The translations under genes were made by a program, and so were the position numbers. 64,000 nt of DNA from Pseudobdellovibrionaceae bacterium. GTDB lineage: Bacteria; Bdellovibrionota; Bdellovibrionia; Bdellovibrionales; Bdellovibrionaceae. The stretch covers positions 124,001 through 188,000 of the forward strand of contig JAEUWH010000113.1 in assembly GCA_016785955.1 (NCBI GenBank). Reading direction: 5' to 3'. A model generated the notes under the pieces. That model had not been told where the DNA came from, searched no databases, and saw only the letters and a program-made list of their open reading frames with translations. Shown here piece by piece: positions 13,269 to 57,692 of the stretch (positions are counted from its first letter, which is position 1; each line of letters starts with the position of its first letter).

Positions 13269-14645
13269 ATGCAATCATTGAAAGTTACACTTATTTTAGG
13301 GCTATTTTTTCTTTTCTCTTTGGTTTCACTAGCGCTCTTTTTTAACTTAGACGGAGAAGCCAACTTTTCCAGTTTAGCCACCCGTTCGACAGATGCGACA
13401 AAAAAAAACAGTGCCACCGGGAGTCGTGAATTTGAAAAATCGGAGGTTATTTCTAAAACCGATAAAGTTGAAAATGAACCCAGCGCTCTTTTTAACGACC
13501 CCGCGATCAAACAAGCATGGGGATTAAAAAAATCCGATGCAGCCCGTGCATGGAAAGTCACCAAAGGCAGCAAGGACATCATTGTTGCCGTGATCGATAC
13601 GGGTATCGACATCCATCACGAAGATTTAAAAGATAATTTATGGAAAAACCCAGGCGAAATTGGACTGGATAAAAATGGCAAAGACAAATCCACGAACAAC
13701 ATTGACGATGACAAAAACGGTTACGTAGACGACGTCTATGGTTGGAATTTTGTCAGCAACACAGCCGATCTTACCGACAATCATGGGCATGGGACACATA
13801 TCGCAGGCATCATTGGCGCTATGGCTGGCAATCAAAAAGGCATCAGCGGTATCGCTCCCGACGTCAGCCTGATGATCATTAAATACTACGACCCCAAAGT
13901 TACCAGCACTGATAACTTAAAAAATACGATCAACAGTATTAACTATGCCATTAAAATGGGTGCGCAAATTATTAACTACTCGGGCGGTGGAACAGATTAC
14001 TCTCAAGACGAATTTGATGCCGTTAAAAAAGCCGAGAAAAATGGAATTCTATTTGTGGCAGCCGCAGGCAATGAACGATCGAACTCAGATCAATTTCACT
14101 ATTATCCGGCCGATTATAAGCTTTCAAATATTATCAGCGTGACCGCACTTGACCCCAGCAAGGAAGTTCTAGCTTCCAGTAATTTCGGCATCGAAACGGT
14201 AGACCTTGCAGCTCCCGGTCAAAATATTATTTCAACATTACCGGGAAACTCATACGGATTTATGACCGGAACATCACAAGCAACAGCGTTTGTCAGCGGC
14301 GCCGCTGTTTTAGTCAAAGCCAACAAAACAGAATTCAAATTTGACGATATAAAACGTTACATTTTGTCAACCGGGGACCCATCGACCACATTAGCACAAA
14401 AAACGCGCACATCCCGCTCTTTAAATCTATTTAAATCACTGACAATACTCGATCAGGGAATGTCCGCTAATGGTATTGTCGTCAGCACACCAGTTAACGA
14501 AGTTTTCACTACTAAATCTGATGCAAAATTAAACCCCGACTCTTCGACCGGTAGCCTCTTTGGCAAAAGCTTATTGGAAGCCGTACAAAAATCAAACCCG
14601 AAACCAAGATTGGGCGGCAAAAAAGACTCCCAAGATATTCCATAG
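13269..14645 (+). CDS. Secreted subtilisin-like (S8) serine protease
   Basis: 458 residues. An N-terminal hydrophobic segment (VTLILGLFFLFSLVSLALFF) acts as signal peptide or membrane anchor, followed by a Ser/Thr-rich linker. The S8 triad is clear: Asp in VIDTGID (D110), His in GHGTHIAG (H174) and Ser in GTSQATAF (S336), with Asn in AAAGNE for the oxyanion hole. A Ca-binding-like DDDKNGYVDD segment follows the Asp motif. There is no clear I9 propeptide. The C-terminal 80 residues are a low-complexity tail. AAGGGA lies about 9 bases before the ATG. It probably acts in the periplasm or outside the cell. Confidence 0.93.
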   Translation: MQSLKVTLILGLFFLFSLVSLALFFNLDGEANFSSLATRSTDATKKNSATGSREFEKSEVISKTDKVENEPSALFNDPAIKQAWGLKKSDAARAWKVTKGSKDIIVAVIDTGIDIHHEDLKDNLWKNPGEIGLDKNGKDKSTNNIDDDKNGYVDDVYGWNFVSNTADLTDNHGHGTHIAGIIGAMAGNQKGISGIAPDVSLMIIKYYDPKVTSTDNLKNTINSINYAIKMGAQIINYSGGGTDYSQDEFDAVKKAEKNGILFVAAAGNERSNSDQFHYYPADYKLSNIISVTALDPSKEVLASSNFGIETVDLAAPGQNIISTLPGNSYGFMTGTSQATAFVSGAAVLVKANKTEFKFDDIKRYILSTGDPSTTLAQKTRTSRSLNLFKSLTILDQGMSANGIVVSTPVNEVFTTKSDAKLNPDSSTGSLFGKSLLEAVQKSNPKPRLGGKKDSQDIP

Positions 14646-44997: not shown

Positions 44998-46314
44998 TCA
45001 GGCCGACTGTAACACCGTGATTCGATCACGGCCATTGGCCTTACTTTCATAAAGCGCCTCATCCGTTTTCTTATAAAAATCCCGCACTGTTTGCACTTCG
45101 GGGTTCCAACTGCAAATTCCGATGCTAATAGTACATTTGATCTGCTTTGTTTCGTAATAAACAATACTTGATTTAATTTGCTCGGATATCTTAGCCGCCA
45201 TATCCAATGTTTGATCTAATGTTTGGTCCGGAGCTAAAATTGCGAACTCTTCGCCCCCTACACGCGACACTAAAACTTCGTTGTTCTGGTGCAGTCTCAA
45301 AATTTGACCAACATGGACCAATACAGCATCCCCACCTGGATGCCCATAGCTGTCATTGATTTTTTTAAAAAAATCAATATCCAGCAAGACCAGATTTAAC
45401 TTCTCGTAGCGATTCGTATAGTCCGTCAATTTTTCGCGGAAAAAGCGCGAGTTATGCAATTTGGTCAAATCATCAAATATCGACAGACGCTCTAACGTCA
45501 TATTTTGGATCAACAGTTTCATCTGCTCGGCCAAAGTAATGACTTTCTGGTGATCAAACTGCTGCGCCTTCTCGGGGTTATGAATAGGGATAAAAATCTC
45601 GTACAGATCTTTTGACTGAACTTGAATAGGTAAGACAACCATGCTGTGTATATGACTTGTCGACAACAATTCCTTAACCTTGTCACTATCGATATAAGTA
45701 TATTTTGTCGTCGCGGGCAATCCTTGAATTTTCTTATTTAATGAGTCAAATACGGATGATTGACCTAGATAATTTGAATTAATAATTTTAACAATTTCTT
45801 TTTCATTACTTTTTAAAAGCCCTACGCCCAGCCCAAAATTATTTAAGATATGCTTAATAAACTCTTCTAAAATTTTGCTAGGTTCTTTAACTAAGCGAGT
45901 ATTATGGAGAAGCTCAATTAACGAGTCCATTTCTTCGATCTTCTTATCTTTAAGACCCATTTCTCGACGGTACTTCTTGTGTAATTCTTCCTCAATTGTT
46001 ACATCCTTGAAAAACAGGATATATTTCCCCTCAAAGGGAACAATGGAGTACTGACCTAAACCTTTTTCAACACTTTTGGTTTTGAATGAAATCACTTTCA
46101 TCGGACGAGCTTCTTTTACACCAATGAATGAATTCAGTTTTAATGGCTGCTCATCAATTTCTATAAAGACTTTACCTAACGTCATCTTACCAATCACCCG
46201 GGCCACAGATAAACCCGAAAATAAATAAAATGACGAGTTAGCATACTCAATTAATCCAGAGTCGTCATAAACAACAACGACATCGAAAGAACTCTCAAAT
46301 ATATTAAAATCCAT
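44998..46314 (-). CDS. PAS-GGDEF diguanylate cyclase
   Basis: 438 residues with an N-terminal PAS domain (DVVVVYDDSGLIEYANSSFY), a helical linker, a GAF-like region (about 140-270) and a C-terminal GGDEF domain. The active site is RVGGEEFAIL, and LHNSRFFREKL with LDIDFFKKINDSYGH also fits. No RxxD inhibitory site lies before the GGEEF, so product feedback may be absent. It is likely an active c-di-GMP synthase. No ribosome-binding site precedes the ATG; a promoter lies 5 bases upstream. Confidence 0.93.
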   Translation of the reverse strand: MDFNIFESSFDVVVVYDDSGLIEYANSSFYLFSGLSVARVIGKMTLGKVFIEIDEQPLKLNSFIGVKEARPMKVISFKTKSVEKGLGQYSIVPFEGKYILFFKDVTIEEELHKKYRREMGLKDKKIEEMDSLIELLHNTRLVKEPSKILEEFIKHILNNFGLGVGLLKSNEKEIVKIINSNYLGQSSVFDSLNKKIQGLPATTKYTYIDSDKVKELLSTSHIHSMVVLPIQVQSKDLYEIFIPIHNPEKAQQFDHQKVITLAEQMKLLIQNMTLERLSIFDDLTKLHNSRFFREKLTDYTNRYEKLNLVLLDIDFFKKINDSYGHPGGDAVLVHVGQILRLHQNNEVLVSRVGGEEFAILAPDQTLDQTLDMAAKISEQIKSSIVYYETKQIKCTISIGICSWNPEVQTVRDFYKKTDEALYESKANGRDRITVLQSA

Positions 46315-52703: not shown

Positions 52704-53507
52704 ATGGGCTACTTTTTTATACTTTTATGTTTGGTCATTAATGGGTGGGGACAGCAGCTGTACTTACCAAGAACAATAAGTCATCACCTTCATTCCGCAC
52801 AGCGGGGCCCCAACGAATCTGCAAATGCTGCATTTCAACGTTATCTTTCTCGGCTATCCTCGACAGGTGTTCGCCGAATCAACAATGACACACCTGTTGC
52901 GATCGCTAGGCCTTACAGTCAGCTGGCCTACCAAGGCATTCCGGTTTATCAAAGTCCCATTATGACACAAAAAGCATTCATGAGTATACGTGATGTACGA
53001 TATCTTAAAGACTCTAACCACAATATGATAAGACGCTCGAGTTGGTTATTTCCCGACGATGGCTGTTTTGCCCGTGCGGCCTTAATGGTACAAAAATTAA
53101 GTCAATGGAACCTTTTGCCACCAGCAAAAGTTTTTATTTTTGGCAACCTCTCGGTCAAAACGAAAAATTCCCCTTATGGATCTGTCGACTGGTGGTATCA
53201 TGTTGTACCAATAATCATTGTGGGAAACCAACCTATCGTGTTTGATCCAGCCATCGAACCCGGTCAACCCATGTTATTAAAAGATTGGATCCTGGCTATG
53301 ACTCCAGAAATTAACTCGGTAAAATTAGCGATCTGCCATCCCTCTAGTTACACTCCCGACAGCCCCTGCCGTGTAGACTCGAATTCAAGTGAACCCGCGA
53401 TGGATGACCAATTATTTTTCTTAAATATGGAATGGAATCGGCTAGTTGAAATGAACCGCAATCCTGTCCGTGAACTTGGCGATTTTCCGCCATGGTTAGG
53501 TCATTGA
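52704..53507 (+). CDS. Secreted protein-glutaminase-like deamidase
   Basis: 267 residues with a signal peptide (FFILLCLVINGWGQ). The core matches the protein-glutaminase fold: LFPDDGCFARAALM gives the nucleophile Cys (C121), SVDWWYHVVPI the His (H166) and IVFDPAIEPGQP the Asp (D181), with about 50 residues before the Cys free to act as propeptide. Such enzymes deamidate Gln side chains in proteins. An excreted form in this organism could act on prey or host proteins. GAGGGG lies just before the ATG. Confidence 0.82.
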   Translation: MGYFFILLCLVINGWGQQLYLPRTISHHLHSAQRGPNESANAAFQRYLSRLSSTGVRRINNDTPVAIARPYSQLAYQGIPVYQSPIMTQKAFMSIRDVRYLKDSNHNMIRRSSWLFPDDGCFARAALMVQKLSQWNLLPPAKVFIFGNLSVKTKNSPYGSVDWWYHVVPIIIVGNQPIVFDPAIEPGQPMLLKDWILAMTPEINSVKLAICHPSSYTPDSPCRVDSNSSEPAMDDQLFFLNMEWNRLVEMNRNPVRELGDFPPWLGH

Positions 53508-53627: not shown

Positions 53628-55493
53628 TCAATTATCGCTTTTCACCAACTGATTGGTCCAAGACTCTATGGTTTGCGAAATACCTTGTTTCGCCTCCGAA
53701 AATTTAACACCATACGATTGATTTGCTTCTGACCATACGACACGACCTTCAACTTCGACTTCGGCACCATCTGGTCCCTTGATTTTCATGGTTAGCGAAC
53801 CACCCTTCTCTAGCATTTCATCGACATTAAAGCTAATACCACCCATCGAGATTGTATTCATATGCGCGACTAACTCGCGACCACCAATATTGACCTTGAT
53901 ATCTGATTTCATCACAAACCGATCGTGTTTACGTCGAGACGCCGGCCTGCTTGCACGCATGTAAAAATAATAGGCCAATGGCAAAGACAAAATAAGTGCT
54001 AACGACACCGCATTTGCTGGCGTCATTCCACCGCCGCCTCCCCCACGACCAAATTGATTCATCAATGCCGTACTCACCAATCCACAACCACCGCTGGATT
54101 TGGGTGCCGCCTGTGCTTCAGATGCAGGCTCGCGCGTTTCGGCATATAAAGGTTTGTAATCTGGTTGAGATGCAGCCGTTTGCACATTCGATTTCGCCTG
54201 CGATACTAACGAATACGCATCAACGCGTGAACCCGATTGAATTTTGCCAGATAAAGGCCCAACCTGCACAGACGTTGAGATAATTAATTTTTTTAATTGA
54301 TAACCAGTCAAAGACGGCGCTTCCCTTAATGCTAAGGCCGCAATACCAGAAACAAACGGGGCCGCCATTGATGTGCCAGACATCGAGCCAAACATATTCC
54401 CTGGCAGTGAAGAATAGATATACACCCCAGGACTCGAGATATGAACCATTTGAACACCAAAGTTAGAGAACGAAGCTAAACGGTCAGTATCGCTTGAGGC
54501 GGCAATACTGATATTACTTGGAACAATATAGTTCGCCGGATACATTTCATTAGAATCATTGTTTTTTGCGCTATTACCGGCCGCTGATACAATCAGAACT
54601 TGTTGATTGTAGGCATAGGAAAGTGCTTCAAGCAATGCACTGGAATAACCAGGACCACCCCACGAATTGTTGATAATTTTAGCCCCATTATTAACGGCAT
54701 AGTAAATAGCCTTCACCGCATTTGATGTCGAGCCCGCCCCATGGGCATCTAAAAACTTTAATGGCATAATTTGAATTTTTGATTGATCCAATTGCGGCGA
54801 AAAAATATCTAATCCCGCACCAATCACAATTCCAGCCACATGAGTCCCATGGCCTTCGTCATCAGCAAAATTTGCAGAATTGCTGATAAAGTTCCAACCA
54901 TTGATATCGTCAATATATCCATTCTGATCGTCATCAATACCATTGCCTGGAATTTCTTTTTGATTTATCCACAGAGCGTTTGTTCTTCTGAAAAGGTCAT
55001 GCTGACCATCCATACCTGTATCCAGAATCGCCACAATCGGACGCTTATTCACGGCGTAGGGCGATGAAACCGACCACGCCTGCTCGACACGAACTGCGGC
55101 ATAGTTTTGCGAAAACGACAACGATGATTGCATTTGGACTTCACTCATCGAAAGCCGATCCACAACTTCTCCGGGACGCTCTTCATCTAATTTTTCTAAA
55201 ATATAATTTGGTTCAACAAATAAAACTTCAGGATCATTTTTAATATCGTTGATCGCCGACTCCTGCCCCGGCTTAACCGAAAAATGAAGCATATTCATTT
55301 CGGGAAATGCTGCTTTTAGATTCACCTTACTTTGGATTTTACTAATGACCTGAGACGATCCTATATCGACGCGATACTTAATAAGATATTCTCCAGGAAC
55401 AACCTTAGGCGTTTGCGACCATGCGGACAACGAAAGCAAAAGCCCGCCTAACAAACAAATGAACCAATGTACTGACCTCGCAATTACAATCAC
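53628..55493 (-). CDS. Subtilisin-like (S8) protease fused through a membrane segment to a PilZ domain
   Basis: 621 residues. Signal peptide (1-26), I9-type propeptide (about 33-100), then the S8 domain with D158 (AILDTGMD), H215 (GHGTHVAG), N307 (AAGNS) and S375 (SGTSMAAP). A Gly-rich linker (about 483-489) leads to a transmembrane helix (about 495-512) and a PilZ domain (516-605). PilZ motifs are R521-K-H-D-R525 (RxxxR) and TISMGG, where Thr replaces the usual Asp/Asn. The protease would be periplasmic and the PilZ part cytoplasmic, linking c-di-GMP or PilZ partners to a periplasmic enzyme. Confidence 0.9.
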   Translation of the reverse strand: MIVIARSVHWFICLLGGLLLSLSAWSQTPKVVPGEYLIKYRVDIGSSQVISKIQSKVNLKAAFPEMNMLHFSVKPGQESAINDIKNDPEVLFVEPNYILEKLDEERPGEVVDRLSMSEVQMQSSLSFSQNYAAVRVEQAWSVSSPYAVNKRPIVAILDTGMDGQHDLFRRTNALWINQKEIPGNGIDDDQNGYIDDINGWNFISNSANFADDEGHGTHVAGIVIGAGLDIFSPQLDQSKIQIMPLKFLDAHGAGSTSNAVKAIYYAVNNGAKIINNSWGGPGYSSALLEALSYAYNQQVLIVSAAGNSAKNNDSNEMYPANYIVPSNISIAASSDTDRLASFSNFGVQMVHISSPGVYIYSSLPGNMFGSMSGTSMAAPFVSGIAALALREAPSLTGYQLKKLIISTSVQVGPLSGKIQSGSRVDAYSLVSQAKSNVQTAASQPDYKPLYAETREPASEAQAAPKSSGGCGLVSTALMNQFGRGGGGGGMTPANAVSLALILSLPLAYYFYMRASRPASRRKHDRFVMKSDIKVNIGGRELVAHMNTISMGGISFNVDEMLEKGGSLTMKIKGPDGAEVEVEGRVVWSEANQSYGVKFSEAKQGISQTIESWTNQLVKSDN

Positions 55494-55632: not shown

Positions 55633-55646
55633 TCATAAATTTATGA
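55633..55646. promoter_or_regulatory. Perfect 14-bp palindrome between the subtilase-PilZ and DUF502 genes
   Basis: TCATAAATTTATGA is its own reverse complement and lies 15 bases before the chosen DUF502 start. It is a candidate dimeric-repressor site, though AT-rich palindromes can arise by chance. Confidence 0.25.
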
Positions 55647-55660
55647 GACACTCAGTACAT

Positions 55661-56281
55661 ATGTTAAAACGAATTACCGATATTTTCCTGCGTGGCCTGC
55701 TGACCATTTTGCCCATCGTTATTACTTTCTATCTCATTTATACGGGCGTCGTTATTTTCGAAAATATTCTGGGACAATTTTTTCGAGATGTCCTAAAAGA
55801 ATCGTATATTCCAGGCTTGGGACTTCTTACCACCCTCGTTATAATTTTTATCTTTGGTTTAATTTTAACTCATTTCATTTCGAAATCAATTTGGGAACAA
55901 ATTGAAAAACGACTGACTCAAGTTCCCCTGATCAAAGCGGTCTATTCTCCACTAAAAGATCTGATGGGTTTATTCAGTAGTGACGGGCAAAAAGATTTAA
56001 AAAGTGTCGTAATGGTGGAACTCTCTAATGGCACTCATGTCGTAGGTCTTGTGACGCGTGATCATTTCGAAGACGTTCAAGGAACGCAAGAACCCAATAT
56101 CAAAAGCACGTTCGATGGAAAAGTAGCAGTGTATGTTCCCTTAAGCTATGCCTTGGGAGGATATACACTTTTGATTGATAAATCCAAAATTCAAAAACTG
56201 AATATTCCCGTAGAAAAAGCATTAAGCTTGGCCATCACAGGCTGGGTAAAATCTAATGCGCAAGGAGATAAGCATGTCTGA
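55661..56281 (+). CDS. DUF502-family membrane protein
   Basis: 206 residues from ATG 55661, which fits the family's LKRITDIFLRGLLTILPIVIT beginning; an ATG at 55643 would add six residues. It has two transmembrane helices (ILPIVITFYLIY and LGLLTTLVIIFIFGLIL) then an amphipathic cytoplasmic domain with KAVYSPLKDLMGLFSS. The family is broadly conserved and uncharacterised. No ribosome-binding site is evident. It overlaps the next gene by 8 bases. Confidence 0.88.
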   Translation: MLKRITDIFLRGLLTILPIVITFYLIYTGVVIFENILGQFFRDVLKESYIPGLGLLTTLVIIFIFGLILTHFISKSIWEQIEKRLTQVPLIKAVYSPLKDLMGLFSSDGQKDLKSVVMVELSNGTHVVGLVTRDHFEDVQGTQEPNIKSTFDGKVAVYVPLSYALGGYTLLIDKSKIQKLNIPVEKALSLAITGWVKSNAQGDKHV

Positions 56282-57692
56282 TCAGACTGGTTCACGAACG
56301 ACTGCCGGCAAAGCCCTGCGAGTGAACTTAGACTTGAATATCTACGGAGCATTTGCCGAAATTGGCGCCGGGCAAGAGGTCGCTCGCCATTTTTTTCAAG
56401 CCGGTCGAGCTTCGCAGACGATTGCAAAAACGATTTCTGCATACGACATGATTTATAGCGATGAAATATACGGTAAAGAGAAAAATGGCCGTTACGTCTG
56501 TGAATCACGTTTAAACCGAATGTTGGAAAAAGAATACTCGCTGCTGCTGCGACGACTAAATGAACATCGCGGTGGCAAGACAACATTTTTTTCCTATGCG
56601 AATACGGTGGCGACCGGTTCGGCGGAAACACCTAAGTGTCATGGCTGGATGGGTATCCGGTTCCAGAAAAAGCCTGGTGGTGAATTCAATGATATCGTAT
56701 TACACGTGCGTATGATGGATCGTCACCGCCTGCAACAACAGGAAGCCTTGGGTATGCTTGGCGTGAATTTGGTTTACTCTGCTTTTTATCATAACCAAAA
56801 CCCGTCGGATTTTATGACTTTTCTAGTGGACGGCCTGAAAAAGGGGCAAATCGTTATCGACGTCATCAAATTTGCCGGTCCTGACCTGAAACACTTTAAC
56901 AATAAAAAAATGAATCTCGAGCTTGTGAAGCGCGGGCTGGCAGAAGCCGTGCTTTTTGCTCCCCAAAATGGAATTGGCTCGGACGATGTGGCCACTATCT
57001 CTGATACGGTGTGGGGCAAAGGATTACTGATTCAACGCGGATTTTATCGGCCAGTGACCCAAACACATTTGGATGTCATGTCAAAAGGATTTGAACAACT
57101 TAAATCCGAGATCAAAGCGCAAAAAATCAAGGCCAGCGATACAATTCAAATTTTAGAAATTACAAGTGAATTTGATATTGATGTCGACGAGTTTTGGCAT
57201 CGCGTACAAATTATTACCAGTCTAGGATACTATGTCCTGATTTCTAATTTTAAATATTTTTATGAAATGAAAAGATTCTTCCGTAACTATACTCAAGCCC
57301 CGCTTGTTATGGTCATGAGTGCGCGCCACCTGCAAGAATTATTTGATCCCGACAAATATAAACAGTTGGAAGGCCATATTTTTGAAGCACTCGGAAAACT
57401 TTTAGACGAACAAACAAAACTATATATTTATCCGCATAAAAATGATCTTCTTTGCCTGACTACAAAATCCTTTTTTCCAGATAAAAAAGTCAATCATCTG
57501 TACCGTCATTTTATCGAAAACTCGCAAATTTTAGATATCTCGGGTTGTGATGATACCGAAACCTACTTTCATTCTAGCGACGTTCAAAAAAAGATTGAGA
57601 CTAAAGAAAAAGGCTGGGAAAAACTAGTCCCAGCACCCGTTGCAGAGTATCTAAAGAAAAACAAACTCTGGGGTTACGCCAAGGCTAAATAG
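56274..57692 (+). CDS. Conserved cytoplasmic protein of unknown function
   Basis: 472 residues from ATG 56274, with AAGGAG 6 bases upstream. It has segments LNIYGAFAEIGAGQEVARHFF, GWMGIRFQ, LGMLGVNLVYSAFYH and a closing KKNKLWGYAKAK that I recall as conserved across a wide family. From memory, members sometimes carry misleading labels such as TonB receptor; nothing here supports that, since there is no signal peptide or barrel. Its start lies inside the DUF502 gene, so the two are coupled. Confidence 0.78.
   Translation: MSDQTGSRTTAGKALRVNLDLNIYGAFAEIGAGQEVARHFFQAGRASQTIAKTISAYDMIYSDEIYGKEKNGRYVCESRLNRMLEKEYSLLLRRLNEHRGGKTTFFSYANTVATGSAETPKCHGWMGIRFQKKPGGEFNDIVLHVRMMDRHRLQQQEALGMLGVNLVYSAFYHNQNPSDFMTFLVDGLKKGQIVIDVIKFAGPDLKHFNNKKMNLELVKRGLAEAVLFAPQNGIGSDDVATISDTVWGKGLLIQRGFYRPVTQTHLDVMSKGFEQLKSEIKAQKIKASDTIQILEITSEFDIDVDEFWHRVQIITSLGYYVLISNFKYFYEMKRFFRNYTQAPLVMVMSARHLQELFDPDKYKQLEGHIFEALGKLLDEQTKLYIYPHKNDLLCLTTKSFFPDKKVNHLYRHFIENSQILDISGCDDTETYFHSSDVQKKIETKEKGWEKLVPAPVAEYLKKNKLWGYAKAK

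Follow-up and report, generated by a model that had tools for sequence, protein, structure and literature searches.

Introduction

Proteolysis in the periplasm under the control of c-di-GMP is established for LapD-LapG of Pseudomonas fluorescens (PMC3032553, PMC3032545). That system consists of two polypeptides: LapD, which combines a degenerate GGDEF-EAL with HAMP and a periplasmic output, and LapG, a cysteine protease that is held by LapD. Alg44, a co-factor of alginate polymerisation and not a protease, has an N-terminal cytoplasmic PilZ domain that a membrane helix connects to a periplasmic part, and deseasin MCP-01 is a secreted extracellular enzyme with neither a membrane helix nor a PilZ domain. 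Sorting signals of the MYXO-CTERM Cys-type are processed in M. xanthus by the CPBP protease MrtX (PMC11980579).

The life cycle of the predator Bdellovibrio bacteriovorus is tied to c-di-GMP, and few PilZ outputs are known. Strain HD100 has been credited with 15 PilZ proteins (PMC3271064), three B. bacteriovorus pilZ genes drop after the attack phase on microarrays (PMC2797640), and a Subt-PilZ protein of this species, NP_969350.1, was tabulated under 'Signalling' in 2008 (PMC2605481). Here we analyse an S8-TM-PilZ gene in a 64,000-nucleotide stretch of DNA (the window) from a Bdellovibrio relative with a genome of 4.34 Mb. Its product is a membrane-anchored subtilase with a predicted periplasmic S8 domain and a predicted cytoplasmic PilZ domain. 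The best overall explanation, which we consider about equally likely to be right or wrong, is that of a membrane zymogen-type subtilase whose PilZ domain would steer its location or assembly.

Results

Domain architecture and predicted topology

The gene and the features of its product are located in the window as follows.

53628..55493, minus strand: S8-TM-PilZ gene, GTG start, 621 aa, full-length orthologs found
55413..55493, minus strand: signal peptide, residues 1-27 (approximate), n-, h- and c-regions to SAWSQ
55194..55412, minus strand: subtilisin-type propeptide, residues 28-100, from a weak PF22148 match and the AlphaFold2 model
54270..55046, minus strand: Peptidase_S8 catalytic domain, residues 150-408, PF00082 at E=3e-50, far above cut-off
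55020..55022, minus strand: catalytic Asp158, invariant in alignments
54849..54851, minus strand: catalytic His215, invariant in alignments
54369..54371, minus strand: catalytic Ser375, invariant in alignments
54075..54092, minus strand: GGCG[LMT][VI] motif, residues 468-473, with invariant Gly469-Cys470, from conserved columns
53952..54017, minus strand: transmembrane helix, residues 493-514, with near-invariant Pro505, from hydropathy, the positive-inside rule and model helices
53655..53936, minus strand: PilZ domain, residues 520-613, PF07238 at E=2.2e-15, far above cut-off, and Foldseek
53919..53933, minus strand: PilZ motif 1, RxxxR, R521 and R525, from alignments
53838..53855, minus strand: PilZ motif 2, T-I-S-M-G-G, Thr547 replacing Asp/Asn, from the alignment

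The initial annotation had proposed a signal peptide, an I9-like propeptide, an S8 domain with the triad D158, H215 and S375, a membrane helix at about residues 495-512 and a PilZ domain with RxxxR (R521, R525), with the protease outside and PilZ inside. The Pfam search matched both the S8 and the PilZ profile, and these were the only domains among the matches of the protein, with no GGDEF-EAL receptor and no LapG cysteine protease. The triad is invariant in 93 aligned homologs, together with the oxyanion residue N307. The proposed signal peptide has the expected n-h-c regions, its h-region is likewise hydrophobic in the orthologs, and the AlphaFold2 model has a helix at its residues 2-23. For the putative propeptide, the model shows at residues 31-99 the beta-alpha-beta-beta-alpha-beta order of subtilisin prodomains (block pLDDT about 77-96), and the Pfam search of the protein returned for this segment a Fervidolysin_NPro-like match (PF22148, E=0.007) under the cut-off, with no I9 match and nothing at any Pfam cut-off.

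The AlphaFold2 model of the full protein, for which a 56-row alignment was the input, has a mean pLDDT of 88 and contains an S8 fold and a PilZ barrel with a C-terminal helix. Between the two, residues 454-490 form a Gly-rich, disordered linker with pLDDT values mostly <50, followed by a membrane helix that is broken near residue 503 (492-502 and 504-514). The segment is hydrophobic, and the positive-inside rule favours a cytoplasmic PilZ domain for 75 of the 79 orthologs, in agreement with the opposite-side topology first proposed; the predicted topology is consistent over the class. Features that had been overlooked at that stage are the Cys470 motif, Pro505, the gene neighbourhood and conservation across the class.

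Conservation and constraint on both domains

The invariant columns among 56 aligned orthologs include D158, H215, N307 and S375 in the protease, G469, C470 and P505 in the linker and helix, and R521, R525, G551 and G552 in the PilZ domain. In a larger set of 79 PilZ-containing rows, in which a few species may be counted twice, once from each of two collections, R521 and R525 were retained in 77 rows, P505 in 78, S549 in 75, G551 in 78 and G552 in 77.

Mean identity to the window protein was 0.56 for the S8 domain, 0.50 for PilZ and 0.74 for the Cys motif, with 0.38 for the propeptide, 0.25-0.34 for the linkers and 0.24 for the helix. We relied on dN alone because dS was saturated in most comparisons; to the nearest species, dN was 0.041 for PilZ and 0.086 for S8. 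Since the identity of the PilZ domain is near that of S8 and far above those of the linkers and helix, and its dN is no higher, PilZ is constrained about as strongly as S8.

The PilZ domain as a candidate c-di-GMP binder

Both the PF07238 match and a six-stranded barrel fold identify the domain as PilZ, and of the 18 PilZ domains in the host genome it scores highest. When it was modelled alone, as the initial annotation had suggested, it again gave a PilZ barrel, for which the best Foldseek match was the c-di-GMP-bound PilZ domain of Alg44, followed by MotI, BcsA, MapZ, PlzA, VCA0042 and YcgR. A phmmer search of the isolated domain against the PDB returned spurious matches only.

The Thr noted earlier in place of the [DN] of the second PilZ motif proved to be a family-wide trait. 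Of the [D/N]xSxxG pattern the Ser and Gly are retained, and position 547 is T in 48 of the 79 rows, S in 22, C in 3, D in 2, N in 1 and other residues in three, so that Thr/Ser stands for Asp/Asn in 70 rows and D or N in 3. In the six other PilZ domains read from the host genome, this position is D, N or E. This difference would fit a PilZ domain that no longer binds c-di-GMP and has become a protein-protein docking module, placing the protease independently of the second messenger, and there is a precedent in PixB of Myxococcus, whose PilZ domains miss a conserved motif 2 residue (PMC8316039). However, a pure docking domain does not need the ligand arginines, and here RxxxR and GG are invariant over the class and D or N is still found in a few family members. 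We regard loss of binding as unlikely. With RxxxR and GG in place and Foldseek matches to c-di-GMP-bound PilZ domains, the domain looks like a c-di-GMP binder, and probably is one, with the Thr/Ser at the Asp/Asn position as the limit on that reading.

The window also encodes a PAS-GGDEF protein (44998-46314, minus strand, 438 aa, GGDEF E=2.6e-37), some 7-8 kb distant from S8-PilZ, which may be a source of c-di-GMP encoded on the same contig.

An invariant Gly-Cys motif ahead of the membrane helix

The invariant Gly-Cys motif ahead of the helix is a new observation. C470 was present in 77 of 77 readable PilZ-containing rows and in 10 of 11 readable PilZ-free rows, at a median of 21 residues from the helix. 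Cys470 may be a site of rhomboid cleavage, lipidation or an intermolecular disulfide.

A disulfide between two chains would make the protein a constitutive dimer, with the PilZ pair joined by c-di-GMP or the reverse. PilZ proteins often act via dimer changes, and a single Cys is found in the mature protein of 37 of the 79 orthologs. By sequence inspection, these include the window protein, in which an internal disulfide is therefore impossible. The remaining 42 orthologs have another Cys count in the mature protein, which argues against a general dimer of this kind. We consider it rather improbable; it would be compatible with a PilZ domain that steers location or assembly and would specify the mechanism.

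Another reading takes the Cys motif, the helix and the Arg cluster as a tripartite sorting or release signal like MYXO-CTERM, with the protease cut off or lipidated at Cys470. PilZ would then be left behind, and c-di-GMP would either have no role in the mature enzyme or only gate its release. The Pro in the helix and the PilZ-free relatives, which like sorting signals stop just past the Arg cluster, are in line with such a signal, but a PilZ domain behind the helix would be pointless, though it is strongly constrained. The processing enzymes are also patchy. CPBP (myxosortase-type) genes were found in 24 of 60 relatives and are missing from 36, including complete genomes that carry S8-PilZ; the window's genome has two Rce1-like genes. 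Rhomboid proteases, which could serve instead, were found in 60 of 60 genomes, and because they are universal their presence leaves rhomboid release undecided. No CTERM model matched the protein at its cut-off. In the window's genome the pattern GCG[LIM][VI] had 18 matches versus 24 for a control, which is no enrichment, and among the 15 of the 18 that were read no other match precedes a terminal membrane helix. As the motif lies before a helix only in S8-PilZ among those read, it is not a genome-wide shared tag. CPBP processing at Cys470 as a general mechanism and GCG[LIM][VI] as a shared sorting tag were both rejected on these grounds, and a sorting or release signal as a whole seems quite improbable.

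Distribution within Bdellovibrionota

We searched 291 genomes of the phylum, of which 99 belong to the class Bdellovibrionia and 192 fall outside it. The same S8-TM-PilZ order, with a match through the PilZ domain, was present in 89 of the 99 class genomes at 40-85% identity. In two others (G001 and G004) the orthologs are interrupted by contig ends, and in G039 and G151 the protease and helix are present and PilZ is absent. The 6 class genomes without a clear ortholog are five small genomes (1.2-2.0 Mb) and a draft in 230 contigs (G290). That the gene is a functionless local fusion or an artefact of assembly, as absence from all relatives would have suggested, has virtually no chance of being correct and was rejected, given the class-wide full-length orthologs and the purifying selection on both domains, and with nothing found in its favour.

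Among the matches listed, none in the 192 non-class genomes extends past about residue 515; a fusion would outrank the matches listed, so its absence outside the class is supported for these 192 genomes. Beyond the phylum, the relatives among the best 80 loci of a genome scan are S8-only.

The family f4 small genomes (G210, G238, G247, G256 and G288, 1.2-2.0 Mb) lack S8-PilZ, keep GGDEF genes and have one PilZ domain or none. A coupling of PilZ loss to c-di-GMP loss was considered and is unsupported: GGDEF genes occur in 28 of 28 genomes checked, and five other PilZ matches remain in each of G039 and G151.

Origin of the PilZ fusion

PilZ-free relatives in two families outside the class (f14 and f15) have the signal peptide, S8, a GC[GA] motif and the helix, and most have an Arg-rich end. 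In a protease-domain tree (a quick search with SH-aLRT only and some long branches) they branch outside a group with SH-aLRT 99 that comprises all PilZ-bearing proteins plus five PilZ-free proteins. The Cys-helix anchor is thus older than the PilZ domain, and the RxxxR of PilZ appears now to stand where an Arg cluster closes such anchors. The PilZ-free proteins with Cys motif and helix inside the class are L066, L161, L162, L214 and L215, of which L066, L162 and L215 are second copies in genomes that also have the PilZ-bearing ortholog. The labels need six changes on the tree, most simply explained by one putative gain of PilZ and five losses. In several lineages the Cys-helix protease persists on its own, so that PilZ is not needed for it to work.

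Gene neighbourhood

In families other than that of the window, the gene often adjoins a PpiD-type gene (SurA_N plus PPIC rotamase), with mreC, mreD and PBP2 divergent. This arrangement is seen in families from both orders of the class, and several examined loci outside the window's family lack it. The block of S8-PilZ, PpiD-type chaperone and mreC-mreD-PBP2 is conserved in sister families at L060:835-7863, L136, L151, L218, L224 and L226. The window's family retains the divergent ppiD/mreC pair, with the protease gene elsewhere, beside a DUF502 gene and a gene for a 478-aa protein. The position beside ppiD and mreCD-PBP2 is probably the ancestral one, and as the gene left it in its own family, the neighbourhood is not obligatory. 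The context suggests a role in envelope growth or protein quality control.

Three further observations concern the window. The DUF502 membrane protein and the 478-aa protein (55643-57692, plus strand) form a conserved pair that, in most members of the family, is divergent from S8-PilZ; the 478-aa protein has no Pfam or NCBIfam match. An exported protein-glutaminase-like enzyme (Gln_deamidase_2, E=1.7e-26) is encoded at 52704-53507 on the plus strand, convergent with S8-PilZ, and its gene was not found beside S8-PilZ in the relatives examined. A further S8 protease (13545-14432, plus strand) is 37% identical over residues 138-427, and its C-terminal 90 residues contain no hydrophobic helix like that of S8-PilZ.

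Discussion

Proposed mechanism

Computed sequence data support the domains, the catalytic residues, the predicted topology, class-wide selection on both domains and the putative ancestral gene position. In the zymogen-type subtilase that we favour, the signal peptide would export the propeptide and S8 domain, which would fold and mature in the periplasm. The Gly-rich flexible linker with its invariant Cys would join S8 to the single membrane helix, and the protein would stay tied to the inner membrane with PilZ in the cytoplasm. Binding of c-di-GMP by PilZ would set the location, partners or oligomer state of the protease, and the cutting of envelope proteins would follow the predator's c-di-GMP state. 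A disordered linker of ~40 residues is a poor rod for transmitting a conformational change, which favours location, partners or oligomer state over simple transmembrane allostery; on the model, control by c-di-GMP through location or assembly, as opposed to direct allostery, is a serious possibility that falls somewhat short of an even chance. That the substrates belong to envelope growth or quality control is, from the gene context, a slightly more tentative suggestion.

The most specific version of this proposal is an envelope protease of one polypeptide, gated by c-di-GMP and already present in the ancestor of Bdellovibrionia, in which PilZ was added once behind the older S8-Cys-helix anchor and which couples the attack/growth signal to the cutting of periplasmic or elongation-machinery proteins. 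Taken in all its parts it is doubtful. If true, a near-universal single-gene link between PilZ and a periplasmic protease would give the c-di-GMP network a concrete and testable output. As to the process served, the ppiD and mreCD-PBP2 position in sister families offers an initial hint.

Comparison with known systems

The closest solved S8 structure is deseasin MCP-01 (PDB 3vv3; phmmer E=2.4e-62, Foldseek E=1.7e-31, 39% identity), and in structure the PilZ domain is matched best by that of Alg44 (PDB 4rt0, 4xrn). With MYXO-CTERM and myxosortase (PMC11980579) the protein shares a Cys motif, membrane helix and Arg cluster after a signal-peptide-exported protein. It differs in that PilZ follows the helix, so that the tail is not C-terminal, in the Cys-to-helix spacing, in the lack of a CTERM match and of a motif shared among the proteins read, and in that the cognate CPBP is missing from most genomes with the gene.

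The initial annotation had called the arrangement a system not known to be described. This holds in part. The Subt-PilZ survey (PMC2605481) lists the same domain pair from the same bacterial class as one example, and the control of periplasmic proteolysis by c-di-GMP was known from LapD-LapG; the membrane helix, topology, Cys motif, conservation and mechanism are not in the 2008 survey. The likeness to LapD-LapG is that the cytoplasmic c-di-GMP state would govern a periplasmic protease via an inner-membrane protein, whereas S8-TM-PilZ has a receptor-type domain and a serine protease in one chain, with one helix and a flexible linker. The logic is the same with other parts, which makes S8-TM-PilZ a candidate one-polypeptide variant of it and, if true, a second and simpler way of achieving what LapD-LapG does.
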